Shown in pieces: positions 1 to 25,046 of a DNA stretch of 41,439 bases. Positions within the stretch are counted from its first letter, which is position 1, and every line of letters starts with the position of its first letter. The stretch comes from Scytalidium lignicola (Eukaryota; Ascomycota; Leotiomycetes), in the NCBI GenBank assembly GCA_002812745.2, contig NCSJ02000359.1:1-41439 (forward strand), given 5' to 3'. The translations under genes and the position numbers were made by a program. Under the pieces are notes generated by a model that was not told the DNA's origin, searched no databases, and was given only the letters and a program-made list of their open reading frames with translations.

Positions 1-933
1 TAATAATGTGATTAATAACATTTATATTTATAATCTACTGATTATATATAAACATAGAGAAAGTTATAGGATTAACAATGACCAAGTTAATAAAGTTGAG
101 GTTAACAATATTAAATTTGTCCTTTAAATTAAACTTCTTAGGTTTATCCTTACTTTTCTTCTCCTTCTTCTTGTCAAACTACTTTGCTTTATATTCCTTA
201 AGCTTCTTAAGATACTTTTGAAAGTAATTGGATTCCTTGTAATTGTTCTTCTTGTAATAATTGTATTTGATGTCCTTAAAGCCTTTTAAATTGTTTAAAT
301 TGTTCAAATTATTCTTGTTATACATAATAATATTAAAGGAGTTAATAGTAGAGATAAATTCATTAGTAATGTCCTTTATAAGTTAAGTAAGTATAGATAA
401 CTTCTCTAATCTACTAACTAAACGTTGATGTTCAGCTTAAATAGGATATTCATCCTTAAGACTAGAAATAAAGACAAATTAATAGAGAAACTTTATATTA
501 TTACCCTTGATAACCTTTAAATTAACTATTATCAATTTGAATATAACAATATATATACTTGTAGAGTTGAAGTGATTACATTTAATGAAGATCAGCTTAA
601 ACAAGAACTTTTGTTATAGATTTCAACCTTTTCCTTGATATTGAACTTTTAAAGTACTTAAACAAGCTTTATTGTATTATAGTCTTTGATCAATAATATA
701 ACCTTGTTGTTAATATTAACATTAAGATATATATAAGTTTTAACATCATCTTTACACTAAGCCTTCTACTCAGGATTATCTCCTTTAAGAAGTAAAACAA
801 TATTACTAACATGATCTTCAAGACCTTTAGACTAGAGCAATACTATAAAACAGAAGTTCTAAAGGTTATAGTTCTCTGAACCTTTAAGTCTTTAGTCCTT
901 AAGAAGAATTATAGTTCTAGAATTGTTAGCCAT
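1..933 (-). pseudogene. Ty1/copia-like gag remnant, RIP-mutated, runs off the left edge
   Basis: On the minus strand an ATG at 933 opens a frame (MANNSRTIILL...) with a spacing typical of Ty1/copia gag proteins: a LKGSENYNL block, then a SKGLEDHV block about 25 residues later. The frame is broken by many TAA/TAG codons at positions where the family has Gln or Trp (for example directly after ENYNL), the mark of C-to-T RIP mutation. Nearer the window edge the translation becomes Lys-rich, as gag proteins do before the zinc knuckle. The rest of the element would lie to the left of the window. The family call rests on pattern recognition; the pseudogene state is clear. Confidence 0.6.
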
Positions 934-3900
934 GTTAAAGGTAATAGCTAGATGCATGGATATAGGTAAACAAAGACNAAAAAAGGTGTTAATCAACATA
1001 ATCAACATAAAAGAAGTAGAGTTAGCTTAATTACATTGTTACTGGAGTATATAACCTGTTAAATTAAGTATAACAAGAAGTTGTATAATCAGGGTTACTC
1101 AAATATATTGTAATGTTATAGTAATTATATATGTACATGAGTAAAGAGAGCTAACTAGTAGACTACTAAAAAGGGAAGTCATGTATAATAAACAAGATGA
1201 TGCTTAAGGTAACATATAGGATATCATAACAGTTAATCATAACTTCTTTAAGTAAAGTTATATAAAGAAGTGTTGTAAACAAGTATAAATAACATTTACT
1301 TAAGTTCTTTTTATTATTATTAGCAAAATTTAAACAAAATCACTACTAAGAATAATAAGAACATCTTTAAACAGAAAATTCTAGCCTTTTACAAACTATA
1401 AATCATATAATAACCAGTAAATAACCTTAAAACAATACTTGTATTGTATAAGAACTTTATCTTATATAATTAGATTTACTTTATAGATTATAGTTGTTAA
1501 CTTACTCNTTTTTTACAACTATACTTATAAACAATTCATTTAATTGAATTAATATTTAAAATTGAGAATAAGTTATATAATCTCTTAAAAGCAAAAGTGT
1601 AATAATGTTTGTAAAAGTTATATATAACATTGTTTTGCTTAATTTACAAAAGTAATAATATATAATCTTGTAAAGAAAGGTCTTGTTAATTCTTTCTNAA
1701 GCTTTTGTAAATAGAAATAAGCAATTTACAGTTCATTTTTAATTGTTATAATAATAGTATCAAAATACTAACATTAATCATTGTTTAATTAATCTTGTAT
1801 ATCAGTAGTTAAAGACTCTTCTTGTATTGGATTATATATAAGTTTAATAGAATTAAGCAAAGACTAATTAAAACAAAGTATAAGTATGTAAAAGTGTATA
1901 AGAGTTCTTTAAAGATTATATAATTTCTTATTAAGCAAATACAACTTATAATCATACTTAAGGTTTTATAATACTAATAAGAATCTTATATTATAAAGAA
2001 ACTTTAAATAATACTGTAGATTATCATATATCTAAACCTTAAAATGCTTTTATACAGTTATAAGCTTACTGATTAACTATGCTCATAAACTAATTAAGAA
2101 TATAATTTATAAATTACTTCTTAAATCAAACTGAATTGCCTTTTCAAAGTAAGAAAACTATTCTTAATTATTATCAGTTAAACCTTTAATAATATACATT
2201 ATATAGTATGTAAAGTATTATATATTATTGACTATATACAACNTTTTTAAATAACTTTAAGTTATAAACATGTATAAGTAAAAGTTATAAATAATATCTC
2301 TTCTTATGTGTTAAACTACAATAATATATATAACTTACTACTTAGCCTTATTTATAATCTTTTTAAACTTTAAGCTTTTTATCTTACATAAAGTGATTAG
2401 AAAACTCTTAATATAAGAACTTATAGTTGTATATAAAGCTATTATTATAAACATATTTTATAAGATCTAGGTTAACATAGTTATTTTCTGAATTACATTT
2501 GAAAAAGGTTATTAGTTTAAAGTAAGAGTTTTTGATTATATTCACAATTTAATCTAGTTTTATATTATCTTTAAAAATAACTGTATATTCTTTTAAAAAG
2601 TGTACAAGTAAGCATGTTATTAATGGTTACTCTTAATAAGTTGAATATTCTATCAATCAAGTAATAACNTTTTATAAAGCTAATATAACATATTTAAATA
2701 TATTGTTTAATCTTATCCTGTTAGTTTTTAACTACAATAGTAAAATAATCATAGCCTTTATAAATGTATTTATAGATATACTTTATAGTTTATACTATAT
2801 TATATAACTTAATGTTAAGATGATAATTGAACTTTTAAAGTAAGTATAAGTTGTAAGGAATAATCTAATAATTGTCATTTATAATCAGTTAACTAAAAGT
2901 GTTTAATTTGTTTATATGCATTTGATTATTATCTTTATAATAGTATAATAAATATTTATCTTCAAAAATAATAATAATATTTGTAAACTTCTTTAAAAAG
3001 TGCTTTAAACAACAAAGTAATTCAGTAGTTATTTTATGTTTTATATAAGGATTTTAAGAGTAATCTAGACTGTATATACTATGTATTATATATTTGATCA
3101 CTAAATTTTATAAAATGCTATAAAGATTATAAGATAGATTTAATATCTTTACATAGATAAGTTTATCAATATAGTTTAGAGTAAGCTTAGTTATATAATA
3201 TTTAATGAATAAAATAAAGTGTATATAAGGCAAACTATGTTTTTAATATTTAATTATAAAACAATGACCTTCTTAAAGGTTAAAAGCTCTTGCTTTAAAT
3301 TCCTTATATAACTTAATCTTTTTAGCCTTAAAAATATAAGTAACTAAATCAGAGCAGTTTATAACTGACTAGTCAAAAAGAAGATTATCTCAAATCTCTT
3401 GTTAATTAGGATTTGTAATAATAGTAATAAAGTATATAAGTTTCCTGAAATAATATATTAAAACCATTAAATCTTGAAATAATTATTATATATAATAATT
3501 ACTCTTTACAAACATAAAAGGAAGTATAATATAATAGCCTAGCTTAGTTATATTTATATCCTCTAACTATAAAGTATTGTGTACAAACTGATATAAATTG
3601 GTTTATAACTGATTTTGATGATTATAAAGTTAATTAAGCTTATAAGTTTCACAATACATATAAAAATTAATAACATACTATTAAAAGAGTTAGTAATTGT
3701 AAAAGATAAAAGAGAATTAATCTTTTTAAAGGTGTAAATAATAATAAAACTACATTTATTGTATTAACCGTTTATTTTCACTGTTATCCTGATATTCTAA
3801 GCTATAATGCTAATTGTAATCATTATAAAAGAACAATAATACATAATATAATAGTATATAAAGAGTATAACTTGTTAGAATTCAGGTTAATTAAAATATT

Positions 3901-5969
3901 TTACTACTTTTACTTTAATTAACTAATATAATATCTTTAGACTTGAATTTGCCAGATTCTTCAGGAATAATTCTAATAATCTTATTATATATAAAAAGAT
4001 TAATATACTTTGAATAATAAGCATCTTCTTTAATTAACTTTATTCAAGAGTTTAAACTTAGTCAAAAGTGCTTTAGTTGTATAATTATATGTTTAAAGAT
4101 TATTTTGTATAAGTGAATAAGAAGGTTATAGCTTATAAGCATAGTGTAAAGCTTATATAATAATATTCAATTTAACTTAAGATTTTAATCAAACTGAACA
4201 TTTGTAATGTAATCTGAATTGTAAAAGAATAATTAAGTAAATTTAAATGTTTTTAAAGAATAAGCTAAATCTAAAAGTCTTTATAAATAACATAATATGT
4301 TGTGAATTGAAAAACAAGTTATATTATCTTCTCAACTATTAATACACTTGTTATTAGTATAGTTTACAAACGTAAAAGCAAAAGTAAAGTTATATTTTCT
4401 TATTTAAGACTAAAATACTTTTACTTATAAATTGTCTTTTATAAATAAGTCTTTTAACAGTTAAGATAACTTATAAAATGACTTTAAATCCAATTTCTTA
4501 TTCTTGTAATAACTTATCAATGTTTCTCCTAACTAGAATAACACTTTACAATATGTATATTCATTACTTATTCATCTTATATAATAAGGCTTAACAAGCT
4601 GAAATATAAATATAAAGCTTTTCAGCATATTTCATAATTATATTACTTTCTAAGAAGGTTTTTGTAAACTTGTAAAAGTTATACTTAAGGCTATACTCAA
4701 AAGTAAAGAAAGTAAAGAAAATAAAGGAGGTAAAGGAGGTTTAACAGTAAAGAAGAGAATTAAAAGGGTTTTATAATTCTGGATTAACTTTAAAAGGTGT
4801 AATTATACTAGTTAAATAAGAATTATAACTTGATTTAGTTATCTTCTCTTATTTGGAAGTAGTAAAGTATTATAAGCTTGTTAAGTTTACTATAAAGCAG
4901 TTATATTAAGCTTTTTTAGTATAACTCAATTTTGATTTTAACAATAATATTCTTATAATTTGTTTGTATTAAAGTGTAAATAAGGTNAAAGNAAAAGCAG
5001 TAATACAAGTAATAACACACTTTACAATTTGTATAAATATTATATAAACTACTGCATAACCAGCAAAGGAAGTATTAAGAAGGACAATCTCTTTTATAAA
5101 TTATACAATAACTTGTAAGTAAAGCTAAAGGAATCTGTTCTCTTACTTTCCTAAGTATTATTAGTAACAAAGTAATACAATTTCAAAAGTGTAGAAAAAG
5201 GGAAAAAATNAAAAAGAAGGGAAAATCTACAGTTAATAAACTTACAGACTATAACAAAAAGAATACATAAAAGCATATTGAAAGGAATATGTAAAAGGGG
5301 AATTAATATTATATTACAATTTCTAAAAAACATAATGTTTCTGAGTAACTAAACATATGATAATTGATATACTGAAGAAAGGGAAAAGTAAATAACTATA
5401 CAATACTCTATGTATATTATGTTATTAATAACCTTTGAGAATATCAAGGTTATAAGCTAAAAGGTTGATTGGATAATCACGTTATGAAAACAACATAGCT
5501 TACAAACCTGATCAGCTAATAGAACGGCCGAAAAGAGCTCTCAGGAACCAATTATACACGCGGAAAGTGTGTTAAATTATGTAAGGGAGTTTACAATGTT
5601 TTCGATATTATATAGATTAAAAGCATGAAATTTGTCCGATTTATGCTTCCTCTATCCTTTGAAGAGGTCTTTCAGACTACTTTAATTTCACAAAAAGCAT
5701 TGAAAACCGAGTATATCCTCTAGTATCTCAAAGAGCTAGCTCTTGAACAGGAATACAAGTCAACCGCATTAAATCAGGTCTAAGAGATCGTTAAAGCGAC
5801 AGTAGCCGTACAAGTATATGTAATAGTCAGTTTTCTATAAATTACTTTTCTAGTGCTTATCAGGTTATAACAGTAAGATCTATAATATTCACTAATAATT
5901 ATAATTAATATAAATAATTTTACTTAAATGAAACTTGTTAAAAAATAATATAAGTAATAATAATGTAAA
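934..5969. repeat. AT-rich RIP-degraded block, no intact gene
   Basis: About 5 kb of extremely AT-rich sequence with stop codons in all frames and no open frame with recognisable protein character; the only frame above 60 codons (5151-5333 minus) is low-complexity and contains an N. The composition and stop pattern match heavily RIPed transposon remains. The segment just right of 933 should include the 5' non-coding part of the copia element. A stretch at about 5500-5820 is less AT-rich but still has no frame I can support. Confidence 0.6.
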
Positions 5970-5971
5970 TA

Positions 5972-6080
5972 CTGTCATATCCTAAAGTGGCCTGTTTTTC
6001 GCGAATTCGAGCCCTGTGCACGCCTTTTTGCAGCGCGTACCATAGTAAATTAATGTAGAGGACTAAATCAATGAATTGAC
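5972..6080 (+). repeat. Left terminal inverted repeat of the 2.9-kb Tc1-like element
   Basis: 109 bp matching the inverted sequence at 8785-8893 apart from a handful of transitions. The shared core includes TTTTTCGCGAATTCGAGCC and a TAATGTAGAGGACTAAATCA block. Confidence 0.9.
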
Positions 6081-6144
6081 TACCATACAACATGTTTCTA
6101 CACTTGTTTTTCGTGCTATTTGCGTACGAAGTGCTTAAATCGAT

Positions 6145-7446
6145 ATGCTACCCAAAAAAGCTTGCCGTTCAACATCTAAACCACATGCCAAACGACATAC
6201 GAAGAAGGTTTTAGAGCCTCCAGAGCCTCCAGAGCCTTCTACACCTCGAACACGTCTGATTCTAAGGGTTACTCCTGCTCTATCACCTTGTATAACTGTC
6301 AGACCTTCAACAATTGGTTTTAGCTCTCTAGTGATTAGTTCTAGCTTTCCTATAGCTGTTGAACTGTTGAGAAACACCTCCCTTTCTCCGCTTAATTCGA
6401 CTGATATACTATTAAAACAACCTTACAATCTTGAATTTAGAATAAAGGTGTTTTTTGAGGGTTTGATGGTTTTATCTGAAGGGTTTCTTGAAGATATAAA
6501 TGCAGATAATCACCTGAATTTCACTGATATTATAGAGTAAGTTAAAACAAGAGTTATTGAGATTATGGAGTGAAAGAATATTCAAGGGCCTCTTTGAGGT
6601 GGAGATTGATTAAAGTGCTATTTTGGCAGTATTCTCAGGCTTACTGAATATGATATAACATCTAATATTAAGTAAGAAAAGCTTGAAACTCTCTTGAAAA
6701 ATCAACTTGTTAAAAAAGAAAATACTCTTTGAATTGAGGTTTGATATGCTGTCAACTCTAATTTATACAACAAACCTGTACTTGTTTTAATTACAAAGTC
6801 AGCTTTACCAGAGAAACCACCTTCAAAATGAATTTTTCAAGCCTTAACAGAGAATAAATTCAAAAACGAAGTTATAACTCTTATAACCAAACGACTATGA
6901 AGTATAATCAAGATTTAGATCGAAGAATTGAACTAAATAATCAAAGATCAACTTATATATGGAATTGTATATACATTGTTCAAGTATTATTATTATAAAG
7001 TTCTAACTTACATTAATCAATTTAAAATCTGTTAGGATAAGATGATAAGTAATAAGAGAATCAAGTATGCTCTGATTTTAATAGCAATAACAAAAGTATA
7101 AGCAGATGAGATTAAAAAGAATAGATTAACATTGAAAGCTTTATCTTTGAAGATAATTTGTATAATTAAAGAAAAGGAGAATTAATATCTTGTTCTATAG
7201 TAAAAGAAAGAGAAAGTAAAGTAATTAAGGTCTAAAAACATTCTATTGATGTTATTACATAGTAGTAATATTATCTTTAACATAAGAACCTTAACCTCTT
7301 CAAATCAACTAACAAGTTAAAGTTAAACCAGCTTATTTAATAAGGAATTAATTTGTCCATCAAGCCTTATTCAACTTGATTGTAATAATGAAGGTTTAAT
7401 TCTGTTATTTACTGAATATATACATAAATACCTTCCTTTACATTAA
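6145..7446 (+). pseudogene. Second (cargo) ORF of the Tc1-like element, unknown protein, RIP nonsense
   Basis: I do not recognise this protein. The first 131 codons are open from ATG 6145: a basic N-terminus (MLPKKACRSTSKPHAKR), a PPEPPEPSTP stretch, then ordinary globular-looking sequence. Past the first TAA at 6538 the same frame stays protein-like to a TAA at 7444-7446, giving 433 codons. The interruptions are almost all TGA, TAA or TAG at places expected for Trp or Gln (several TGA between 6560 and 6910, as in a PPSK-stop-IFQ context), with no frame change. That is how a real gene looks after RIP. The 3' third is rich in Lys, Ile and Gln. It lies inside the TIRs, convergent with the transposase, and could be a second element-encoded protein or a captured host gene. 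Confidence 0.55.
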
Positions 7447-7694
7447 AAAAAGTGACAAGATTGAATTAGTACTCATAATTTTACTAGACCAAGATATCCC
7501 TTTTATTCTATTTAACTAACTTAATGATAGTCAGCTTAAATTACATGGTTTTCTATATAAAGCTGTTATAATTGTTCAAATGCATATACTAGGGTGGAAA
7601 AAGGAGTATAAGAATCACTTTGATTTATTAACCTCTATAGTAATTCTTATAGATTTAGAGGTTTAATGGCTTTTATTATACATAGTAAAACTAA

Positions 7695-8686
7695 TTAGAT
7701 TTTTGTATTTTCAATTATTTGATAACTTAAATAACGAAAATGGTTATTTGTATTCTTAACAGCTTTATAACTACTTCTCCTTCTTATTTTGTCGATTTTA
7801 ATATAGAGTAAAGCCTCAAAATCAACCTTAATATCTTGATAAGAAGTGTAATACCAACGAATTCACTTCTTTAAATCATTAAAACTCNTTTTTGATTAGG
7901 TTGAAAAATAGGCAATATAAAGGTAAAAACTTGAGCAAAACACCTTTAACATTACAAAGTGATTAGAAGTATGCTTTTCTATGAATTGTACAATTGTCCA
8001 TTATTAAAACTGACCTCTTGTACAACTAAAGGTTATATAATAACAGTATATCAGTTTCAATCCATTGCTTGAATATATTGGCTATTATACTTCTTTTGAC
8101 AATGATTGTTGTGATATAACCTTTTATTGTATATACTAGTAGAATCAAGTACTTCTTTGATTGTTTCAACCACTTTTTAACCTTTGTTAGCCTACTAATA
8201 AGTGCTTATCTATATTTCCAATGTCCTGTACATTTAGTACTACCAGATTCATCTACAAAAACAAGTTAATTAACTCTTTATTCTGCAGATTCAATATTCT
8301 AATTATTAATAAGATATTGATTTCGTTGAGTAACTATGATTTCAAACTTTTTATAGTTAATATCAAGCTTCTTTAAAAGCTTAGAAATCATCGATTATGA
8401 TAATTGTACGTTGAATTCATCGTATACAAAGTTTATGATCTTATCCTGAAATATCTCATTAAACATTACTACCAATTCGATAACTGCTTCTTCGATTTCA
8501 AGGGTAACCATTAAAGGTCGGTATATCTAATCCAATGATTGTACAAAGTTGTATACCTTGAGCAATATATCGAACAATTTCGTAGGAGACATCAAAAGTA
8601 GTAATAATCGTATATTTGTCGTCGTTAGAGTTCAGGAGAGCACTTTCAATAGCTTCGACTACCTCTCTGCGAAGGTTTAGAGTCAT
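7695..8686 (-). pseudogene. Tc1/mariner-type DDE transposase, degenerate
   Basis: From ATG 8686 the minus strand encodes an N-terminal helix-turn-helix-like region (KYTIITTFDVSYEIVRYI). After a one-base frame change near 8510 it continues as LEIEEAVIELV..., then FVDESGSTKCTGHW (first catalytic Asp), a frame-disrupted MDNCTIHR block (second Asp) and a degraded LPLYCLFFNLIK block followed by SFNDLKK. The last corresponds to the family's PPYSPDxNPIE motif, with the Pro residues and catalytic Glu region altered. The tail (HFRYLSYQIIE) also matches the usual C-terminus, ending at 7695. Frameshifts and nonsense codons make it inactive. Confidence 0.75.
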
Positions 8687-8784
8687 TGGATAGATTATAT
8701 AGATTTTATAAGGTTAAAACATTCAGTATATATCGGTCAATTCGATTAGTTCAAGAAACAAGCAATAGATCGATCGAATAGAAT

Positions 8785-8893
8785 GTCAATTCGTTGATTT
8801 AGTCCTCTACATTAATTTACTATAGTACACATTGCAAAAAGGCGTGCACGGGGCTCGAATTCGCGAAAAACAGGCTACTTTAGGATATGACAG
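8785..8893 (-). repeat. Right terminal inverted repeat of the 2.9-kb Tc1-like element
   Basis: Inverted partner of 5972-6080, differing by a few transitions (for example GGGGCTCG against GAGCCCTG on the other arm), followed by TA. Confidence 0.9.
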
Positions 8894-8895
8894 TA

Positions 8896-10130
8896 AAAGA
8901 TTAATGAACAAATATAAGCTTAATAAATTTTATTAAAATTAAGTGTAAAATTATAATATTATTTTAACTTAATTTTGTTTTAAAATTTATAATCATTATA
9001 AATAAAGAATTTTAATTAGAGTATAACTTTAATTAAAGTTTGTAATAATAGTAAAAGTAAAGTATAAGTAAAATAAAAGTTAAATTAACTTAATTATAAA
9101 ACTATTATATTTTAGATTATGTGTTATATAGAATACGTGACCTNAAAAAGGTGAAGTTATAAGATTTTACTAGTACTTAATATTCTTAACAGTTAATATA
9201 TTAAAACTGTAAATGTAGACTAGCTAATAGTTTTAACTTCTTAAATTATAATAAGCTTAAGCTAGTTATAATTATAAATAACGTAAAACTGAATAATCAA
9301 TTCTCTTAAAAGCGAAAGTAGTATAGCTAAAGATGATTAAAACTAGCTTAACAATATAATTTAGTAGAATACTTAAACTATTCAAAGAATTTCCCCTTTA
9401 TTTTTAATATTATAAGTATAAATATCGTTCGATATCTCATGAACCTTAAGGAAGATCCTTGAGTCTTTGTACGAATCACTTAACCGTATTACAGGACTAA
9501 CAGATTCATCTTCCGGATTCGAATACTACTTCATGCGAATCAGCGCTACTAGTATAAACTCGATCAGTTTATAAGTAGTAATTTAAAGAGTTAAGTATAA
9601 TAATAAAGTATCTTTGAATTTTATTAAACAGCATAGCTTTTTATTAAGATATTCAAAAAATTACTAAAATAAGAACAATATCTAATAATCAAAATATATT
9701 ACAATTATAAATTTTAGTAGATTATCTTTATTATAAAAGCTTTAATAAATTATAAGTCTTATTTATTTACATTTTAAATAATAATATCAGATTATACTAA
9801 CTTTATTTTAATTAATTTTCTATTTAGTAAATTGTTCTTTTGTATTCTTTAAATAACTTTTTCTTAATTTATTTTAATCTTACTTTTGATATACTACTTT
9901 GTAATTCTAGATTTAACTATTATAAGATTTACATTTACAAATTAACATTTATCTACTAACTTTTTAATCTTATTTTAAAAATCTTTATTTAATAATAAAT
10001 AGTTGTTTTCTAGCAGTATAAACTTAGTATTAAAATTNAAAAAAACCTTTTCTTTTATTAAATCTTTAACAATATAATCAAAACTTAGTATTATTATTGC
10101 TTGGTATAAGATTTCAAATTGTAACTTGAA
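8896..10130. repeat. AT-rich RIP-degraded block
   Basis: About 1.2 kb of very AT-rich sequence without any supportable frame. A short island of normal composition at 9425-9560 holds no gene I can identify. The right edge grades into the possible gene relic at 10.14-10.6 kb. Confidence 0.55.
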
Positions 10131-10140
10131 AAGTTTGTCT

Positions 10141-10600
10141 ACTAGATTCAAGACACCAGCTGCGTCGAACGTCTATGGAGCTTCACGACGTGCATACACT
10201 TCAGCATGGTTTGGCATTCCCTCGAGAACTGCCTGGGATAGATGGAACCCAGCCATGTGAAGAACGGCTGCAAAATTTGTTCCAGATAAATCATGGTGTT
10301 TGTCCGCGATTCCTCCCTATGACCCGCTCAGTTGCTTAAAAGACTAGTAACGGTATGCTAAAGACAACATAGAACTTACCAAGTATTGTTTGACTGCCTC
10401 GGACTATGTCAGAAGGCAATGACTAAACACACGGAGTCGACTGTTTTATCCTAAACGCTGTTCCAAGTCCGCCGCTCGTGGCCGAGCGATGACATCACAA
10501 GCGGTTCGAGCAGTAGATCTTTTACTCCCAACTCCAATTGCTGAAGCACACAGCGCAGGGTTAAATTCAACATGTAGAGCAAAATCAGGCTTTTTAACTC
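10141..10600 (-). pseudogene. Possible relic of an unidentified spliced gene
   Basis: The minus strand has protein-like segments of normal base composition. One runs from about 10319 down (GGIADKHHDLSGTNFAAVL, then HMAGFHLSQAVLEGMPNHAE) to a TAG near 10172. Just upstream is a good donor/acceptor pair (GTAAGT at 10379, CATAG ending near 10320) that would join it to an earlier segment containing SEAVKQYL and, further up, ALCASAIGVGSKRSTART. TAA/TAG codons interrupt the frame in RIP style, and leftward it runs into AT-rich sequence. I cannot assign a family, and a second frame over part of the region is also open, so this is tentative. It lies directly downstream of the UstYa gene and could be a lost enzyme of that locus. 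Confidence 0.25.
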
Positions 10601-10857: not shown

Positions 10858-11894
10858 TTACTCGCCTAAATATCCATCGACCCACGTCTTTGGATCTAAA
10901 GGATCATTCATTTCCCGATACTCAAAGTCAAAGCCAGCTTCAACATTTGCTCCATACTTGCCTACAGACGCCCAGTCTCGAATTTTGTCGAAGTTCCTAC
11001 ATGTATGAGGGGTTGCATACACGTTTTGCATTACCTTCGCGTCTTCGTTCCAAATCCAGGTAGCTGGAGTCACATCTACATGGCACATAAGTGCCTGCCG
11101 GATAGACTCAATACAATGAGCAACATGGTGCGGACCAAAAAGTAAATCTTCTTTGTTCCCGTCGATTACCCCTGGGACTGCTCCTTTGTAGTATTCTGGG
11201 TGAGTGCTTTGGCGGATCATGTTCTGTTGTGGTAGATTAGTTATCCGAGGTAATGTATAAAGAAATGAAAATATCATACCAAACAATGTAGCTGATGGAA
11301 TACGTCGAGCTCAATAACATATCGACGCTGTGGATCATGCGGGAAAATAAGAGTTTTGTTAGCAAGCTTAGCAGCTTGCTGCTTTGGAATAAGCTGATAT
11401 AAACCTTCATGATACGTTAAAAATATACATCTTTCTTATAAAAGTTGTACTCACTTGGATACAGATCTTCCCAAGCCTTATCTAACTCTGGGGATGCTTC
11501 TCCAAAGTATGGTGAAGGATCACCTTTATGTCCTGTACCGAAGTATCGCAATTCATATTCAAGGAGGTGTTGCACAGGACCTAAAGGACCTTAGTATCTA
11601 GAGTTATTCAAGAAGTTGAGACGCTTAACTGTAAAGAATTTGTGAAGGGTTACAATTGCTGCCCTTACACCGTACATAGTGCATGAAATTCCAAAGGATA
11701 ATTAGAGCAAGTAAATTCCATGGAAGAACAGTGAGAAGAAAGAAAAGAAGTCTTCGTTGGAACTTAACAGCTTTCCGAGATTTGGATTCGGACGCAGCAT
11801 TTCGAAACCATTCTGAGCTTGCTGCCTCTAAGTTGTGATCAGATATAAGAGGTTCTTCAACCTCATGTTCTTTCTCGAGTGCCATGTTTGACAT
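10858..11894 (-). CDS. UstYa-family (DUF3328) oxidase, RiPP-modifying type
   Basis: Four exons: 11894-11630, 11580-11455, 11404-11280, 11223-10858 (introns 49, 50 and 56 bp, all GT-AG), giving 293 aa from ATG 11894. The N-terminus is a short cytosolic segment followed by one membrane helix (about residues 45-68, LLFFLLTVLPWNLLALIILW). Exons 2-3 give the family pattern SPVQHLLEYE, then GDPSPYFGEASPELDKAWEDLY. Both family HxxHC motifs are intact: HQLHC, whose following NMIRQ is spliced on at the exon 3/4 junction, and HVAHCIESIRQALMC followed by DVTP. UstYa-family proteins carry out oxidative cyclisation or related oxidations on fungal RiPP cores (ustiloxin, phomopsin, asperipin, victorin) and, in cyclochlorotine, on a nonribosomal peptide. 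It diverges from the repeat-bearing secreted precursor 496 bp away, which supports a RiPP role. No frame damage is visible. A second Met at codon 4 is an alternative start. Confidence 0.93.
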
Positions 11895-12390
11895 GGAAAT
11901 TCATGTAAGAGTTGGAACGCAAACGTATTTGAAGTAGTAATCGTATTATGTTAATCATAAGCATGTGCTTACACATCAATGATAGTATAACTATGGCGTG
12001 AGGACCTGCCTAAATGAACATTGTCTGCCTAGAATTATTGTCCAAAACTGGCAGGAGAGTTGTTGCAATATAGAACTAACTATTAGCACCTTCTGTAAGA
12101 GATAGTTTTTGCGTGTGGCACTTTTGCTCAGTGACGGGTCGGGTTGCTCGGGAGCCAATAGCCTTCAATGTTACCTTCTCTTTCTGTCATAAAATACGCA
12201 GAAATTTGTAAGCTAATGCGAAAACAACACATTACGTAAGTAGGATTCCATAACTAACTTATCATCTTAAGATTATAAAGGGCATAATATCTCACAGTGT
12301 TGGGAACCATCAAACGCATACAGATTCTTCTTCACTTCTGAAATACTATCTTAAACTATCTCTACTGCTCTACCATATAATATTATCAAG
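11895..12390. promoter_or_regulatory. Shared divergent promoter of the UstYa gene and the peptide precursor
   Basis: A 496-bp intergenic region between the two head-to-head start codons, suited to co-regulation of oxidase and precursor. A TATA-like ATTATAAAGGG at about 12272-12282 precedes the precursor ATG by about 110 bp. No operator can be named from sequence alone. Confidence 0.5.
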
Positions 12391-12813
12391 ATGAAGGCAT
12401 TTACCATTGGGTTTATCTCCTCCCTACTTGCCGTTTGCTCTGTTGCCAGTCCAGTCCCAGCAAACAGCGTTGATTCAACTGCTGCTCCTGTTGCTGACAG
12501 TGGAGATGCCACACGATGGATCAAAGAACGGGCAAACAATGTCGACCTAGTTGCTGCTCCCATCGCCGACAACGGAGATGCTACACGATGGATTAAGGAG
12601 CGTGCTAATGCTGTCGATTTAACTGCCGCCCCAGTTGCTGATTCCGGGGATGCCACTCGGTGGATTAAGCAGCGTGCAAGTGATATGGATTTAACTGCAG
12701 CTCCTGTTGCCGATAACGATGATGCTACTCGGTGGATTAAAAAACGCACTAGTGACATTGATCTCACCGCTGCTCCTGTTGCTGACAATGGAGATGCAAC
12801 ACGATGGATCTAA
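12391..12813 (+). CDS. Secreted multi-repeat RiPP precursor peptide (dikaritin-type)
   Basis: 140 aa, one exon. Residues 1-20 are a classic signal peptide (MKAFTIGFISSLLAVCSVAS). From residue 24 the protein is five tandem repeats, four of 24 residues and a last one of 21. Each has the form xxx(V/I/M)D(S/L)(T/V)AAP(V/I)AD(S/N)(G/D), then an invariant DATRWI, then K-E-R, K-E-R, K-Q-R and K-K-R; the last stops right after DATRWI. Signal peptide, repeated core and basic cleavage sites are the architecture of UstA/PhomA/VicA-type precursors processed by Kex2-like protease in the Golgi. DATRWI is the probable core region. Trp is its only aromatic residue and no Tyr occurs in the repeats. Only repeat 4 has a true dibasic KR. 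Final structure and exact core ends are not known. A non-RiPP repeat peptide such as a multicopy pheromone is less likely, given the adjacent UstYa gene. Confidence 0.88.
   Translation: MKAFTIGFISSLLAVCSVASPVPANSVDSTAAPVADSGDATRWIKERANNVDLVAAPIADNGDATRWIKERANAVDLTAAPVADSGDATRWIKQRASDMDLTAAPVADNDDATRWIKKRTSDIDLTAAPVADNGDATRWI
12460..12810 (+). repeat. Five tandem 72-nt coding repeats in the precursor
   Basis: Units at 12460-12531, 12532-12603, 12604-12675, 12676-12747 and 12748-12810 (the last 63 nt). The DATRWI block is coded with different synonymous codons in different repeats (GAT GCC ACA CGA TGG ATC, GAT GCT ACT CGG TGG ATT, and others) while the residues never change. Confidence 0.95.
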
Positions 12814-13646
12814 GAATGTTCTGATAGCATTCAATTAAATTGTTCCACATATTATATAAGGAAGAACAAGTCACTGGGTGACAGCCGTGCTGATGGTTTT
12901 GAACTCATTATAACTTTACTGAAGGGATTTGAGCCGGGCGATTATAATTGAACGAATGAAATACAAAATTAAAATATAAATATACATTGCTTTGTGCATG
13001 AACCAATAACAACGTTAATCGGTGACTAACAATAATGGCGGGATATATTCATTCATTTATAAAACATTCACATCAGTTTCTATGTAAAACAGACAGTTAA
13101 ATTGATATTTGCTTTATTCATAAGAAAAGTGTAAAGGGCTGCATATATTATGTATAGAATTTGTTAAGTAATTCAGTTAACTAATTTTATTTATAACTTT
13201 ATATGAATTAGATTCAATTTTCATTAGTTTGCCTAAATATCCTGTTTTCAACAAGATATTAAATCTACCACAAGATCCGACCAAACTAACACTTATTAAG
13301 TTTAAGATTTAAAGTTTAATGTTATACATAATGCTTAAACGTTAGTCAATTATCTTAATATAATATAATAGTCAAATCCATAAACTTTTAATTCCATAAC
13401 AGTTCATGATTTTCAGAAACACTAATTTTAACTTGAATCAAACTTACTTTGTCTCATCACAAACCTTATGCAACTATAAAATTGTAAGTGAAATCATAAG
13501 GAAAACTGTCATTAAAATTAATATTTATTATAACTGTAATAAAACAGTATATCCTTTTATTTTATTGAATGTTAATTTCTGGTTAAATAATTGCTTCTTA
13601 ATAATTACTACACCAAGAATTTTCGTATTATTATATTTTGTTACTG
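12814..13646. other. AT-rich intergenic stretch, no gene seen
   Basis: About 830 bp downstream of the precursor gene. The open frame at 13406-13729 is AT-driven and runs into a MITE, so it is not taken as coding. The 3' UTR and terminator of the precursor must lie at its left end. Confidence 0.5.
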
Positions 13647-13878
13647 TACGTAAGGGGGTGCAAGAAATGATTCGGCCCCCTATTAGCCAATCGTTATGCA
13701 GCATTCATCCAAAATTCAAACTGCTTTAATGCTGCTAAGCGACTACACTGTTTTCAAATTCCAGTGCTATACAAGTGTTCCGCGAGTTGTCTAAAATGGC
13801 GTAAGAAAATCTTTTGATTCAGCTAAAAAACCTCTTGCTTGACAAGGAGCCGAATCATTTCTTGCACCCCCTTACATA
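13647..13878. mobile_element. 232-bp MITE with Tc1-type TIRs
   Basis: TACGTAAGGGGGTGCAAGAA at 13647 recurs inverted, ending CCCCCTTACATA at 13878; the match runs about 30 bp on each side (through GATTCGGC / GCCGAATC). The ends are TA, as for Tc1/mariner insertions. There is no coding capacity. Its TIR is nearly that of the adjacent autonomous-size copy at 13889, so it is probably a non-autonomous derivative of that family. Confidence 0.85.
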
Positions 13879-13888
13879 CGGAAGGGGG

Positions 13889-15075
13889 TACGTAAGGAGG
13901 TGTAAGAAATGACTGGGCTACCCCCTGCAAGGCAGTCAAGCGAATATATTGCCGCTTTTCAGTAAACAAACAGTGTTTACTTTGTTTTCTTTTTATTATT
14001 ACTATTACTATTACTACTGTTTTAATGGCTTGGGATACTCTTACACGTGTGTGATTCAAGACTAAGGTCCAAGACGGCTATTCTGAACGTTATGTAGCTC
14101 AAGAATTAGGTATTCCTTATGGTATAGCTCAAAGGTAGTTCAAAAAGAAGGATTGTGTACAGAAATCAACCGGTTGGCTACGTAGCCTTCTTGACAGTAC
14201 AATTCTTGTAATTATCTACTGGTTTATTGGCTATTATGAATGACGAACAGCTTCGATTAAACAAATCAAGAAGGAATTCAATTTAAAGGCATTCAGACCT
14301 ACTATTTTAAAAGTATTAGCATGCTTTGGATATCATTACCATGTTCTTGATTGCAAGCCTGGAACCTCTACAAAAAATAGACTATTATAATGGACTTTTT
14401 GTATTGCAAATTGGGATAGACCACTATAGTACTGGAGGAATGGAATATACACAGATGAAATTATTATGCATACAGATATGCTTAGACGTCAGTGATTACT
14501 CAGAGTAAGAAGTGAAAGGCAAAGGCTTGATTGTATTCAGTTTACCTTCTATTCTGGCTATCAATCTGTTATCGCATAAGTTGCTATTGGTTACAATTAC
14601 AAGTCAGAGTTTTCCTTTGTTTTATATGAAGGAGAAGGCAAGGGATTCATACAGAAAAAGTATGCAAAGTAAATCCTCCAAGGGCCACTGAAAGAGATAT
14701 TTGAGGATTTGGAAAAAGGATACAAAACACTAAGAGCATATTGATATGTAAAGGATAACAGCCGAGTGCATAATAAAAAGAATACAGCTAGAAATAAAGG
14801 ACTATGCAATAAGATACAAATAGAATGCTATATCAATTCAATTGAGTAGCCTCCTCAATCCTTGAATTTGAATCCAATTAAGAATATATGGCAAGTTCTC
14901 AAGCAATTACTCAGAAATTGTAAGCCATTTAGTGGGTAAAAGCTAGAGGATCTCAAAGTAGTTATACAAGATATATAGGAGAACGAGATATCAATCGAAC
15001 GGCATATTAACTACTTTATTGATATTATGCCTGAAAGGATAGTAAAGGTCAGGATGTGGAAGGGAGGCCCTTCAG

Positions 15076-15106
<31 letters not shown>

Positions 15107-15214
15107 CTCTTGTACAGTAGTAATAAAATAGCAATGTGAAAATGCCTTTTTTGGGTGGTAGAATTCGCTCGCTTGCATGGGGTAGCCTAGTTATTTCTTG
15201 CACCCTCTTACGTA
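13889..15214 (+). mobile_element. Tc1/mariner element, full length, inactive (copy 1)
   Basis: 1,326 bp from TACGTAAGGAGGTGTAAGAA to the inverted TTCTTGCACCCTCTTACGTA, bounded by TA. It encodes the transposase relic at 14025-15086. Its right-hand TA (15213-15214) is also the left TA of the next element, so the two abut exactly. A (GTA/TAG)n trinucleotide run lies at about 15081-15106. Confidence 0.9.
14025..15086 (+). pseudogene. Tc1/mariner transposase, nonsense-mutated (copy 1)
   Basis: One continuous frame of 354 codons from ATG 14025 to TAG 15084-15086, with no net frameshift but many in-frame stops. Visible family features: an N-terminal KTKVQDGYSERYVAQELGIP helix-turn-helix region, IYTDEIIMHTD, YEGEGKGFIQKKYAK, VKDNSRVHNKKNTAR around the second catalytic Asp (D-N-S-R-V-H), and LNLNPIKNIWQVLKQLL, equivalent to the DLNPIENIW block, with the catalytic Glu now Lys. 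Stops sit mostly at Gln/Trp-type positions, consistent with RIP. Confidence 0.82.
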
Positions 15215-16544
15215 CAGAAGGGGGTTTTAATAATGACTAGCTTACCTATGGAAAGCAGTGTAGTTAGTGTATTGCTGCTTTTCTAAATAAACAAACATTG
15301 TTTACCTCCTTTCTATACCATCACCACCACCACCATCACCACTACTATTATTACTATTATTACTCTTATAGCTTAGGATACTCCTACATGTATACGATAT
15401 AAGACTAAAGTCCAAGATGGTTATTCTGGACGTTGTGCATCTTAAAAATTAGGGGTTCCTGAATTAACAGTTAGAAGGTGACTTTATAAGGATGATCAAG
15501 TATACAAATCCACTAGTAGACAATGCAAAATCCTAGATGAGACAATTAATAAAATAATTTAGTAGTTTACTGGATATTATGATCAGAGAATACTTCTTAT
15601 ATCAAAGATCAAAAAGTAATTTAATTTAAATGTTTTTAACAATACCTTTCTTGTTGTACTTGTGTATTTTAGCTATTATTATTACATACTTGATTATAAG
15701 CTATTTCTTTTAAAGGTTAATAAAGGTAAACAGTTTATATATTGTATAAAGTATTAAGATCATAATGTCAATTATTAAAGGAAAGGAATATATTATGATG
15801 AAATAATCACATGTTCAAATATACTTAGAAGAGAATACTTTTTGCGTAAGTATGAAGAACAGAGAAAGCTTGATTATATTCAATTTACATTTTATTCAGG
15901 CTATAAATCAATTATAGCATAAGTTACAGTTGGTTATAACTTCAAATCCAAGCTTTATTTTGTTTTATACGAAGGTGAAGGCAAAGATTTCACATAACAG
16001 AAGTATACTAAGCAAATCCTAAGAAGGCCATTGAAAGAGATATTCGAAGTAAAAGCACAACCAATGAAGGAGATATTTAATATATTAAAAGACTTCTTTT
16101 GTGTAGAAGATAACAGCCTTACATAGCAAAAAGAATACATTAAAGAATAAAGGATTTTGTAATGTTATGTGATTAGAAAGCCATATTAATTTAATTGATT
16201 GGCTACTAGTCTTACCAGATTTGAATCCAATTGAGAACATATAAAGAATCCTAAAGCAATTGCTATGAAACAGGAAGTTACATGGAGGGTAGAATTTGGA
16301 GGATTTGAAGGAAGCTATGGTAGATATATAAGATCATGAAATATCGATTGAGAACTATATAAACCACTTTATTGATATTATGCCACAAAGGATTTGGAAG
16401 GTTATATGGAGGAGGGGAGACCCTTCAGGCTGGTAGTTAATTAAATTGATCATAAAACAGCGTTGTGCAATTACCTTATTTGGGTGGCAGAATAGGTGGC
16501 AATACAGGGGGGTGCGCCAGTCATTATTGAAACCCCCTTCCGTA
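15213..16544 (+). mobile_element. Tc1/mariner element, full length, inactive (copy 2)
   Basis: 1,332 bp. The left end TACAGAAGGGGGTTTTAATA matches the inverted right end TATTGAAACCCCCTTCCGTA, with TA at both borders. Same family as copy 1 by transposase and length, but with a different TIR subtype (GGGGGTTT(T/C)AATAATGA instead of GGGGGTGCAAGAAATGA). A CAC/CAT/TAT trinucleotide run lies near 15317-15365. Confidence 0.88.
15368..16436 (+). pseudogene. Tc1/mariner transposase, RIP- and frame-damaged (copy 2)
   Basis: Clearly homologous to copy 1 along its length (KTKVQDGYSGRCAS, YYDEIITCSNILRREYFL, YEGEGKDF, VEDNS, and a degraded ESNxEHI block where copy 1 has NPIKNI). The start codon is now ATA, many in-frame stops are present, and start-to-stop distance is not a multiple of three, so at least one indel has occurred. 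More decayed than copy 1. Confidence 0.78.
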
Positions 16545-16855
16545 CAAATCCGATTCGAAAATCCGAACGGAGCTCAAGGTGCTGTACGTTTAACTAAAGT
16601 CTTATTGGCATATGCAGAAACCATGTGAGATGCATTATCCTTTTCTCTTTAGCATAGTTATCTCGATTTAAGAGAACATTGAGGGATGGTCCCTGGAGTC
16701 AGGTTAAGCTTCTGGCACAGGCTGATACAACTCAAGTAAAATGATAACAGATATCACGTAGGATCTACGTACTTAAATTAATGCAACTAATCATTTGCCA
16801 TGCAATATAAATTAATGGATTGAAACGATCTATTCCTACGATGCATCATGTATAT

Positions 16856-18653: not shown

Positions 18654-21472
18654 ATGTGGACTACTGAAGAGGATGTTCCTCAAAAGGACATCTGCCCAAA
18701 GTCAACTATTGCATGTCATTCGTGTAGAAAGTTTGTTCTTATCTTCAATTTCCTTCTTTTTCCTATTGAGACTAACTCAAACACACGATGGTAGACGTAA
18801 GATAAAATGGTGAGCAAATGGTGCATTTATAGTAAGATCCAAGGGCGGAGCTAATACACTCAGCTCACGGGAACTTCCTCGCTGCGAAGTCTGTGAAAAA
18901 ACATCACAGTTTTGCCAGTATCCGTCAGGAAGCTTAAAACCTGGACCTAAAATAGGTATTCCTGCCGTTATGGCACTCTTCCCTCAAACTACTTTGGACA
19001 CATATCTAACAACCACGAGGTTCGGTCAGGGGAAATCGCAAACGGCAACGGGAGGCCGAAAACAGTGACTTAACGATGGAATTATCTCCAATAGCAACTC
19101 CACCATACGATAAATTGGATTTAGGAGCACGACATACTAATGTGAAATCACCGCCAAAGGTCGTCTGTGACAGAAATTCAAATCTTGACAATAGTACAGC
19201 GCAGAACATTCAAACAGAGGCTCAAAACAATCAACACAATTCCTCCCGGGGATCTTTAAATATCCACGACCTGTCATTTATTTTGCATCCATGTCATGAC
19301 GCTTCCACTTCAGAGAACGATTCGCCTAATATTCATTCGCAAAAACCCAAGGAGAGGGAAAATTCTACGGTGATTGCACATGCTTGCCATGCACTTCGTG
19401 TTACTCCTAATGTTCTCGAAAAGATGTGAGTCTGTGAAAAAGTCTCTAATAAATGAATCGTGAAGAGACTAATATCTATCCCTCTAGGATCAATATTTAC
19501 TTTGATAACATGACCGCGATAAACCTTTTCCTGGAGCCTAACTTCCGAGAAAAATTACAAAACATTGATTCACCAACCCAACTCCACGCTTTGTTAGCAT
19601 CCATACTAGCTTTCTCTGCTAGGTTTTGTGCTCAAGAGGGAGATGATGAACAAGATCATAATTCCATTGAAGTAGTAGGAATATGTCGCAACCCAACCTA
19701 CTTTTTGAATTTAGCCTCACAATTCACCGATGAGGCACTGAGGCAGTGTGACGATGAGGCGCCTCCATTATGTCTTCTACAAGCTCTTATCCTCCTATCC
19801 CATGGTCAGCTCACTCAAGGTGTTCGAGGGAAAGCATGGAGATCTCTAGGGGTTTGTGTCAGGTTGGCATACGAGCTGAATTTGCATCTGATAGACTTTG
19901 GCTACCCCATTGAATCGATAGAAGTGGATGTAAAGCAATGGTCTGAACAAGAAGAGAAGAGACGGGCCTGGTGGGCTATATGGGAGATGGATGTTTTTGC
20001 AAGTACCATTCGACGCTGTCCAACAGCTATCGGCTGGTCACAGATTGAGACATTATTACCCGTAGAAGATGAATATTGGTTTCAAGGAGAATATCGACAA
20101 AGTTGCTTCTTAGAAAAAGACTTCGCCCGACGATGGAAAGCCCTTCAGGAGTCTGGTAATCAGTCCCCAAAGGCATGGTTTATTGTTATCAACTCCTTGA
20201 TGAAGGAGGCACAGTGTATTTCTAGTCCCCGAGGTGTCACTAATTTTTTCTTTCCAGACGAACGTCGACAATCTGCAAAGTCAAATAAGTATAAGAAGCA
20301 AACTGCGGTGGCGGCGGATGAAGCTCGTGACAAGCTGGAAATACTCTCTAACTCGGTTCGTTGCTTTGTGTTAGCTCTACCAACTTCACTTCGATATCGG
20401 CATCAGTACCTTGGTTTCGATGTACGGAAACCGGGTCAGACAGCATCCTTGAGACAACTACATTGTGGACTCTATAATATTCATGTTATGACACAGCTAG
20501 CAAAGCTCATGATTTACCGTTATGAGGTGTTTTCAGGGACTACGAGAGCAGGGTTCTCTACCTCACAAACAAACTCCAGAGGTGCGAACATGGCAAACAC
20601 AGGGAACGATGGGACAAATATAACCTCTACAATGAATGGTGCTCAAAGTTTAGCGATAAGCCAGTATTTCGAGGCCGCCGATGAGATTCTCACTATTGTC
20701 CACAGATGTTGTGATGACCACATCCAATGGATCAACGCATTCCTTGCTAGTACCATCTGGTTGGCATCAGCTGTGCAGCTTGTGCGTAAGGAATTTGGAC
20801 CTTCAGGAACTAACAGAGCTCTTGTCAAGTCAAAATTCGAGGTACTATATATGACATACAAGAAATGCGTGTTATTCTGGAATATTCAGACTGCGCTTCA
20901 GCAGAATCTTGAGTCTCTAGAATCACATCTTGAGAGATTTCGGGCTAATGGAACCAAAAGACATGAGCAACTGTTAAAAAATAACTACCGAAGAGATATA
21001 ACTAGAGCTGAACCATGGACTGGTGAGATAGACATGATTCACTCTAACATGAATAAGGTACAGGACAGTGACATTGGAGCTACTAATGGTGTGTTTCCCG
21101 TGTATCTTTTTTTAAACATCCACGTGTTTGCAACTAATCAAATCCTACTTCACTATAGGGCCCCCATCATCTAGCTCTCAACGGCCCCAAGTAGGTCCTC
21201 TTTACCTCGAACCTATATCACCCGCAGCCTCAAATTTAGACTTCATGCATGTGTCGTCACAGACAGACAGCTGGTCTCATGGTAAGGGAGATCTGCAGAT
21301 TCCTCCATCGAATTTGATAGATCAAGCTTTATTTTCAGAATCGGGGGAGCAATCACAAGCTATGTGCGCTGATAGTTTCCCAGGTCTTACATTTGGACTC
21401 AATATGGATAGCAGCGACATAGAGTTGCAGAGTTATATTGATGAGTTACTTTCCGGGGGTTACACATACTGA
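18654..21472 (+). CDS. Zn2Cys6 transcription factor with fungal-specific TF domain (copy 1)
   Basis: Six exons: 18654-18730, 18795-18809, 18864-18955, 19020-19425, 19488-21088, 21159-21472, 834 aa. The zinc cluster is built across exons 1-3 as C-x2-C-x6-C-x6-C-x2-C-x6-C (CHSC, RKRKIKC, then CEVCEKTSQFC); exon 2 is only 15 nt. A basic linker follows (KPGPKIGSVRGNRKRQR). The large exon carries the PF04082-type middle region: PPLCLLQALILLSHGQ, VRGKAWRSLGVCVRLAYEL, EEKRRAWWAIWEMDVF, RRCPTAIGWSQIETLLP. The C-terminus is acidic. This is a nuclear DNA-binding activator type. Regulator 2 (25047-27884) matches it domain for domain, so the two are paralogues. Convergent with the FAD monooxygenase (184 bp apart), it is a candidate local regulator. 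ATG 18654 is the start that gives the intact cluster. Confidence 0.9.
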
Positions 21473-21656
21473 AGATTATTTGGATTTATTACATTATTGT
21501 ATTAAATCTGCTTTAGGTAGCTAGGTTAGCAAGACGTTATATGACTACATGACTTGCCTAGCTTAATGGGCAAAATATACTTTGCACTATAGTGGTTTTG
21601 CGATTCTCAGTTAAGAGAATAACTTGGATACGCAACATAAATTCTACTAGATGAAC

Positions 21657-23805: not shown

Positions 23806-25046
23806 TGCGGTAATCGTCACTGCCGTCTATCACCTAGTGATTTATTATTCATGTAGCAGTCTTGTCTTTCTATATGTTAGCCAACTTAGCTTGCTCAGTC
23901 AATAGGTACCTCAACGCAGGGATCAAGGTCTTTCACCAACAAAATCATCTGACAAAATAAGACCATCCTACCGCTCCCATTCAACCTTATTGCTCCGGTG
24001 CCTTTCTTTCCCATGGGCTAGATCCTAAAGAAGCTGGTCTGCGGGGCGATCAAGAAGTGTAGCCAAGAGCATACCGAATTAATCACCCCGAAGATGCTCC
24101 GCCTGTGGACAACAACTTGTCTCAAACGGCCACATAAAATAGTATATATTTGTGTGCCACAAAATATCTTCGCGGTATCTATAAGCCCTCAACGACTGAA
24201 ATTTTGCAATTTGTTGATAATATAGTTGGTTGTGGCTATGATTGCTGCCGAGTTTTTAGAACAAGCCAATATAGTTTAGTAGTTGATATATCAAAAACCA
24301 CGGCTGTAAATAAGCAGGATTAAAGAGATCTTTAAATTATAACTTCTATCTCAAGATAAAACTGTATTGCTAATATTAGTATAAATCCCGGAATTAAGCC
24401 GCTTGAAAACTACTTCATCGCATGAAGACAAGTGAAGAGAAGGCATAATCTATACTCATTATAAATTAGCAGTAGCCTATATATTCAATCATGGGTAAAA
24501 CTACGTTATGTTTAAAGTAAACCCCCAATTTACGCGTGATCACGAGCCTTATCTGTTTGAATCAATAATGCCCAAGAACAACCGTGAAGGCAGGGGAATA
24601 ATTTCTGACGTAGTTGAGGAGGTTTTTTATGTCACTTGTAAGCCAAAGAATTAGGATTCTCTAGTAGGTAATACATGTGATTGTATCACCAGCGCAAAAT
24701 ATTTGTTATATAAGAAAACGGAGAGAGCAACATGTTTACGTAGCCGCTATAAGAAAGAACTGGCATTGCAAACCTCCAAGTCGGTGCCCAGCCCATCCAA
24801 ACCATCAGCCAAGTTCCCGTCAACAAAAAGATGTTTTGTTTCTTTCAAGAGCTACGAATGCGCCACTGCCTATACTTTCTTGGGTCTAATCTAGTGTCTG
24901 GGCAGGACTAAATTTCCCCGCATTACACGTACTTTCTCCGCAATTTCCTTCCCCACGACCTGCTGCTGCTTGTTATCATTTTGGGAAATGTTACATACAA
25001 AGCAGGGTTGCATATAGCTAGAGAGACAACCACCACCACGTCTACC
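23806..25046. promoter_or_regulatory. Divergent intergenic region, FAD monooxygenase / Zn2Cys6 regulator 2
   Basis: 1.24 kb between head-to-head genes. Open frames at 24677-24894 overlap in two frames with no recognisable protein character and are not taken as genes. A short upstream ORF for regulator 2 lies at 24988-25017. Confidence 0.4.
24988..25017 (+). promoter_or_regulatory. Upstream ORF in the probable leader of regulator 2
   Basis: ATG-to-TAG of 10 codons ending 29 bp before the chosen ATG (25047), in another frame. If transcribed it could dampen translation of the regulator. Transcript start unknown. Confidence 0.35.

Follow-up and report, generated by a model that had tools for sequence, protein, structure and literature searches.

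A UstYa oxidase gene and a five-repeat DATRWI precursor in Scytalidium lignicola: a candidate two-gene locus for a modified ribosomal peptide

The locus described here lies on contig NCSJ02000359.1 of the ascomycete Scytalidium lignicola, of which a stretch of 41,439 nucleotides was analyzed (this whole stretch is referred to as the window). A gene for an oxidase of the UstYa/DUF3328 family stands head to head with an open reading frame (ORF) for a putative precursor, which encodes a signal-peptide-like start and five repeats of 24 amino acids with the hexapeptide core DATRWI. The pair raises the question of whether it makes a ribosomally synthesized and post-translationally modified peptide (RiPP), and whether such a peptide belongs with the dikaritins. 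The two genes probably form a unit that makes a modified ribosomal hexapeptide centered on tryptophan and that resembles the dikaritin loci in its working. The best reading is that the pair works like a dikaritin locus but fails the dibasic sites and the Tyr- or Phe-bearing core of that class, besides an older five-gene definition of it.

The precursor and its oxidase

The precursor (Table 1) begins with a hydrophobic stretch in which the best 11-residue hydropathy is 2.35. The core starts at residues 39, 63, 87, 111 and 135, an exact period of 24 residues, and the tandem repeat is beyond chance (Tandem Repeats Finder score 245). Tyr, Phe, His and Cys are all missing from residues 21-140, which have five Trp, one per core. 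After the linker the repeat units begin with AN, AN, AS or TS. The first-pass annotation of this DNA gave the coordinates of both genes correctly and described a product of 140 residues with an invariant DATRWI followed by K-x-R in each of five repeats; the length and the invariance (5/5) were confirmed, and K-x-R was found after four of the five cores, the fifth being followed directly by the stop codon. Matches of the precursor to Pfam families (DUF3511 and four others) were all under their cut-offs and are taken as low-complexity matches.

Pairs of whole repeat units differ by 0.27-0.91 at synonymous sites (pS) and by 0.08-0.17 at nonsynonymous sites (pN); within the core, all 10 pairs have a pN of 0, against a pS of 0.22-0.91. 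Counted as differing codon pairs, the core has 26 synonymous and 0 nonsynonymous cases, the linker Lys 4 and 0, the linker Arg 5 and 0, the middle linker residue 1 and 5, and the N-terminal part of the unit 17 and 30. The segment AAPVAD before the core is fairly conserved too (30 synonymous, 4 nonsynonymous). Core, Lys and Arg together require a minimum of 8 changes, all 8 synonymous, which has a P of about 1e-4 under neutrality with transitions weighted twofold and independence assumed. The codons of the core Asp (GAT) and Trp (TGG) are invariant across the repeats, so the selection test alone is silent on these two residues. Purifying selection keeps the core and the linker Lys and Arg, and the reading frame is real.

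The precursor is present as a single copy in the genome. The DATRWI codon pattern has one further, sixth match there (C123), with no repeat ORF in the surrounding 10 kb; the reversed control pattern gave 0 matches, and the chance estimate from base counts is about 1.4. The ORF is absent from the public protein set searched: against its 5.8 billion proteins there was no homologue at E ≤ 1 among the 7,995 candidates listed, though weak relatives may escape. A second repeat ORF of the same genome (C340, Table 1), used as a loose control, recovered two relatives (E 1.1e-58 and 9.6e-11) among 9 candidates, so precursors of such type are findable in the protein set searched. A literature search found no paper containing DATRWI or ATRWIK and no publication on this locus; Scytalidium is named in two repeat-precursor types in the available text of a survey of such precursors (PMC7329392).

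The oxidase gene is intact, as the first-pass annotation had it, with a continuous reading frame over four exons and both HxxHC motifs (HQLHC and HVAHC), and its assignment to DUF3328 was confirmed by the profile (PF11807, E 1.1e-49, 169.7 bits against a cut-off of 25, run on a 280-aa splice). The donor of the first intron is GTTAAG at 11629, rather than GTAAGG at 11668; it restores NPSQILYSPVQHLLEYE, a segment that aligns with the best homologue (P0002). The donor 39 bases further upstream, found in the 280-aa splice and in the public model, drops NPSQILYS. The public model, B7463_g11184 (P0001, partial), thus places the first donor too early, affecting positions 11581-11668 of the minus strand, and also adds a 3'-end exon at 10449-10598 (minus strand) that replaces the likely true C-terminus TWVDGYLGE. 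TW and a short tail end the protein in 8 of the 8 other homologues of a 10-row alignment; homologues back both the ending at TWVDGYLGE and the inclusion of NPSQILYS, which are likely correct. Both HxxHC motifs are kept in all rows of a 10-row alignment (two rows being versions of this gene) and are invariant or at least 90% conserved in an alignment of 52 rows (52 of the 120 proteins listed).

In an AlphaFold2 model of P0001, which carries the wrong C-terminus of the public version, the mean pLDDT (predicted local distance difference test) is 72.8. Each motif falls within a helix there, and residues 36-68 form a long N-terminal helix; the model and the hydrophobic sequence suggest that this helix is a membrane anchor. 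Among solved structures no sequence matched the UstYa profile at E ≤ 0.1, and Foldseek gave no fold match to the model (best of 26 matches E 0.85, prob 0.03). These features match the description of CctR, a copper enzyme whose copper- and oxygen-dependent activity is shown in the cited part of PMC12435403, and by analogy a similar activity is predicted here. In BLAST comparisons the oxidase shares 63% identity with a protein of Hymenoscyphus albidus and 51% with one of Mollisia scopiformis. Paralogous places in its own genome reach 26-46% over parts in tblastn, with 55% in one 22-residue piece, and at this low identity the gene is not a recent duplicate of any of them.

The unit may work as follows. 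Judging from its sequence, the precursor would enter the secretory pathway via its signal peptide. The membrane-anchored UstYa, with a two-copper center presumably held by the two HxxHC motifs, would oxidize the repeats or the cut peptides in the Golgi lumen, as expected from its family; such activity is shown for CctR and reported for AprY and ApnU in the same part of PMC12435403. The chain would be cut at or near K-x-R and trimmed to end in WI, giving up to five equal hexapeptides, DATRWI or ATRWI. The last core ends in Ile and a stop codon, which suggests the C-terminus of the peptide; for all five copies to be equal, the K-E tail would also have to be trimmed. An oxidative crosslink or a hydroxylation would likely fall on Trp, the sole aromatic residue of the repeats, the chances of a crosslink being about even. 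Product, cleavage and crosslink are thus what we infer for the DATRWI repeats. A narrower proposal, held tentatively and rather doubtful as a whole, is that a lone UstYa crosslinks the Trp-only DATRWI, that release occurs at K-x-R instead of at dibasic sites, and that kin of the precursor may adjoin orthologous UstYa genes of other Leotiomycetes and Sordariomycetes unnoticed.

Table 1. Positions of the features of the gene pair, its flanks and two further repeat ORFs (window coordinates unless a contig handle is given)
Feature	Position	Strand	Basis or detail
AT-rich flank	1..10000		GC 0.19-0.29 per 2-kb block
UstYa/DUF3328 oxidase gene	10858..11894	minus	ATG 11894, stop 10858; four exons; 293 aa
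UstYa exons	11894-11630, 11580-11455, 11404-11280, 11223-10858 (incl. stop)	minus	reading frame and splice sites
Divergent intergenic region, 496 bp	11895..12390		sequence; both promoters presumed inside
Repeat precursor, 140 aa, single exon	12391..12813	plus	ORF
Signal-peptide-like N-terminus, about residues 1-20 (MKAFTIGFISSLLAVCSVAS)	12391..12450	plus	hydropathy
Core copy 1, DATRWI	12505..12522	plus	
Linker K-E-R after core 1	12523..12531	plus	
Core copy 2, DATRWI	12577..12594	plus	
Linker K-E-R after core 2	12595..12603	plus	
Core copy 3, DATRWI	12649..12666	plus	
Linker K-Q-R after core 3	12667..12675	plus	
Core copy 4, DATRWI	12721..12738	plus	
Linker K-K-R after core 4	12739..12747	plus	sole dibasic linker
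Core copy 5, DATRWI	12793..12810	plus	stop codon directly after
Three adjacent elements with terminal inverted repeats	13646-13879, 13888-15215, 15212-16545		inverted-repeat analysis
C340 repeat ORF, MKITFISFISLAVAISA..., DEYGAKWAKR x4	C340:28453-28893	plus on the piece scanned	signal-peptide-like start; between two UstYa genes
C188 repeat ORF, PPYHPNIDV x4, three with KR, fourth ends EEK	C188:92282-92485	minus on the piece scanned	divergent from its UstYa

Points against and alternative explanations

The draft genome of S. lignicola DSM 105466 is described as 47.7 Mb with 12,795 predicted genes (PMC6256649); as an Ion Torrent assembly it may contain homopolymer errors. The assembly searched comprises 46.85 Mb in 664 contigs. 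PF11807 matched 54 exons, which were merged into about 37 genes at 29 places. Tandem amino-acid repeats were sought in six frames over 6-10 kb at 19 of the 28 other places and over pieces of about 3.2 kb at 8 (C228:12427 was left out). Together with the 41-kb window and 20 kb elsewhere, the 187 kb of UstYa places came to 249 kb without overlaps, with little control DNA away from UstYa genes. Three repeat ORFs were found, shadows in other frames excluded: the DATRWI precursor and those at C340 and C188, both of which have KR linkers and Tyr in the repeat. A repeat ORF thus stands beside UstYa at 2 of the 27 other places scanned at least in part. Repeat ORFs recur beside UstYa genes in S. lignicola. 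The C340 ORF has a metagenome protein 89% identical over 85% of its length. A further place, C521:127938-138064, has some five UstYa genes in a span of about 10 kb (131527-134800 not covered) and is perhaps a larger peptide cluster.

Several points weigh against a two-gene peptide unit. The remaining 25 of the 27 places show no repeat ORF in the DNA scanned, which leaves most UstYa genes here without a visible link to one; confinement of repeat ORFs to these genes is not inferable because most of the scanned DNA (187 of 249 kb) was picked around them. One of the four linkers is dibasic (KKR, against KER, KER and KQR), and at the other three the known preference of Kex2 gives no reason to expect cleavage. 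The cutting is therefore the weak point: either Kex2, of which the genome holds one gene of this type, tolerates K-x-R, or another protease acts. The small residues that follow the linker Arg (A, A, A, T) agree in part with the trend at P1' of cut sites, where small residues including Ala are named in the cited part of PMC2515848. The repeats have neither Tyr nor Phe, the residues crosslinked in known UstYa products. No homologue of the precursor was among the candidates listed, and both genes are predictions from sequence. The name of a dikaritin-type RiPP locus, given outright in the first-pass annotation, goes too far for these linkers and this core; the membership in the UstYa family, the repeat precursor under purifying selection and the two further UstYa places with repeat ORFs speak for what lay behind it.

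The alternative that fares best, though unlikely, is that the precursor gives unmodified linear signaling or effector peptides and the neighboring UstYa acts on something else. Most surveyed repeat precursors (6120/7878) are without a nearby DUF3328 gene, and W content is alike in both groups (20.5% with DUF3328, 24.5% without), according to the available part of the survey (PMC7329392); the roughly 37 UstYa genes of the genome and the 25 places without a repeat ORF also suggest that such genes often serve something else. However, the precursor and the UstYa gene adjoin head to head, 496 bp apart, and the chance that a given gene has a UstYa gene as one of its two neighbors is about 0.6% (about 37 among 12,795 predicted genes).

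Considerably less probable is that the pair is what transposons left of a larger cluster, stranded and no longer making a product. Three elements with related terminal inverted repeats of 35-45 nt lie to the right, the first starting 0.8 kb past the precursor. On the other side, four of the five blocks of the left 10 kb have a composite index of repeat-induced point mutation (RIP) of +0.44 to +0.54, and the fifth has +0.07; two ORFs tested from this AT-rich stretch had no Pfam match. The first-pass annotation placed the pair between two transposon blocks; this is half borne out, by the elements on the right, while the left has the RIP signature and no Pfam match for the two ORFs. The right-hand elements, unlike the left flank, are not RIP-marked. 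A Pfam scan of 31 pieces, covering all 24 window ORFs of at least 120 aa, most of them unsplit (short exons could escape), found no tyrosinase, transporter or peptidase family; a single methyltransferase match stayed below its cut-off and lay inside a short-chain dehydrogenase/reductase (SDR). The window has one UstYa gene, into which all genome-scan matches there fall, and the first-pass annotation was right that the usual partner genes, including a second UstYa, are missing among these ORFs. Against a remnant, no damage is seen in either reading frame, in the splice sites used or in the two HxxHC motifs, and the RIP composite index inside the two genes is negative (-0.42 and -1.09), so neither is RIP-damaged. 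Selection on the core is visible as well, though it could be past selection.

It is very improbable that the gene codes for the precursor of an alpha-type mating pheromone whose peptide is unusual. Signal peptide and repeats are indeed the pheromone architecture, and a STE2 receptor gene is present in the genome, in which the strict pattern WCxxxGQxCW found no true pheromone (0 matches, control 0). Looser patterns against their controls gave 2 and 4 matches (one with an in-frame stop), 6 and 2 (two with in-frame stops) and 12 and 16; no two of these matches clustered, so the true pheromone gene was not located. A lone WCDTLGRVCW-coding stretch at C34:41741-41770 (minus strand) is pheromone-like, and the control pattern matches as often. 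The repeats have no Cys, whereas Leotiomycete pheromones have two, and there are no XA/XP dipeptides right after the cut site, the STE13 criterion (both from the cited part of PMC6339444); pheromone precursors are also without DUF3328 neighbors, with three exceptions, in the available text of the survey (PMC7329392).

A repetitive secreted structural or surface protein that is no peptide precursor is hardly credible: many secreted fungal proteins are repetitive, but here a short invariant charged core, conserved against a variable N-terminal part of the unit, is followed by basic K-x-R and has a UstYa neighbor.

Other genes in the window

Right of the inverted-repeat elements lie an ABM-like ORF (below cut-off), two fungal transcription-factor genes, a flavin adenine dinucleotide (FAD)-dependent aromatic hydroxylase gene, a piece of a DDE_1 transposase and an SDR gene. 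The hydroxylase (PF01494/Rng_hyd_C, minus strand, 21.7-23.2 kb) is placed between the two factors, which are paralogous, of the Zn-cluster type and 48% identical, at 19010-27884. These three genes are 6-15 kb from the precursor and UstYa genes. A partnership of the hydroxylase with the pair in one cluster was considered; the group looks like a separate unit, possibly catabolic or for a metabolite. With these genes so near and inverted-repeat elements next to the pair, the two-gene extent given in the first-pass annotation is tentative.

The region 30878-31964 contains the DDE_1 transposase ORF, on the minus strand, with another ORF upstream; a 17-bp tandem repeat of 2.8 copies lies at 31917-31964, just past the 5' side of the transposase region. 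A small gene at 36800-37460 (minus strand) has a secreted-protein-like start (MHFFTNAVFTFASLVSFASLGIAQ...), and its first ORF is without a Pfam match. At 36.9-37.2 kb tblastn gave a weak match resembling UstYa, which is probably due to chance. Rfam gave nothing at gathering score in the window.

Class membership and comparison with known systems

The enzyme that defines the dikaritins is a DUF3328 protein with two HxxHC motifs (PMC12048977, in part), and such an enzyme is encoded here, as is a precursor with a signal peptide (by hydropathy) and a repeated core. The Kex2 sites between dikaritin cores are given as KR, RR or KK in the cited part of PMC9769878. In the known products Tyr or Phe is crosslinked, and victorin has Phe in its core as crosslink donor (PMC9233826, in part). 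Y is present in 65.6% of DUF3328-linked repeats and is thus common but not universal, and W-bearing, Y-free repeats with a DUF3328 neighbor are already recorded as type P-3 in the available part of PMC7329392; given this type, a Trp core is unusual but precedented. The older definition by five genes (tyrosinase, methyltransferase, several DUF3328, transporter or peptidase) does not fit the window, nor does it fit asperipin-2a (PMC12048977, in part). The rule of the survey of KEPs (Kex2-processed repeat proteins) asks for at least three tandem repeats of at least 8 aa between KR, KK, RK or RR (PMC7329392, in part); the precursor has one dibasic stretch, at residues 117-119. Since three of four linkers are non-dibasic and Tyr and Phe are missing, the pair is filed neither as a standard dikaritin nor as a KEP.

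If the product exists, a family associated with Tyr and Phe chemistry would gain a Trp-centered core, and the very small gene set behind it could readily be reconstructed in a laboratory host. Both the peptide and the distance between its cutting sites depart from published examples, so the usual searches would miss such a precursor; as it is missing from the protein set searched and fails the dibasic rule, fungal modified peptides may be undercounted. Dropping the KR requirement from repeat scans next to UstYa genes is an easy adjustment.

The C340 and C188 repeat ORFs share with the precursor the genome and the vicinity of UstYa genes; unlike it, they have a 15-aa unit, KR and Tyr in the repeat. 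The KEPs (Umemura 2020, Le Marquer 2019) have the same architecture, with DUF3328 adjacent in 22% of those surveyed and DUF3328 genes peaking at the position next to the precursor genes (PMC7329392, in part), whereas the gene described here departs from the dibasic rule and is absent from the protein set searched. Like the ustiloxin and phomopsin systems (UstA/UstYa/UstYb, PhomA), the pair combines a signal peptide and repeats with a DUF3328 oxidase gene, and acidic residues precede the aromatic part of the core (EDYxI there, in the cited part of PMC6339444; GDATRWI or DDATRWI here); unlike in those systems, no tyrosinase, methyltransferase or second UstYa was seen in the window, Tyr is missing, and K-x-R replaces the dibasic sites. 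Asperipin-2a of Aspergillus flavus (AprA/AprY) differs in its core, FYYTGY with Tyr ethers against the Trp-only DATRWI, and in the reductase and transporter genes of its four-gene cluster, none of which was seen beside the pair; yet that cluster too has a precursor and a single UstYa-type gene at its heart, and in both systems a repeat precursor with hexapeptide cores goes with one UstYa-type enzyme, in asperipin-2a essential (aprY) and thought to be cyclizing (PMC6514808, in part).

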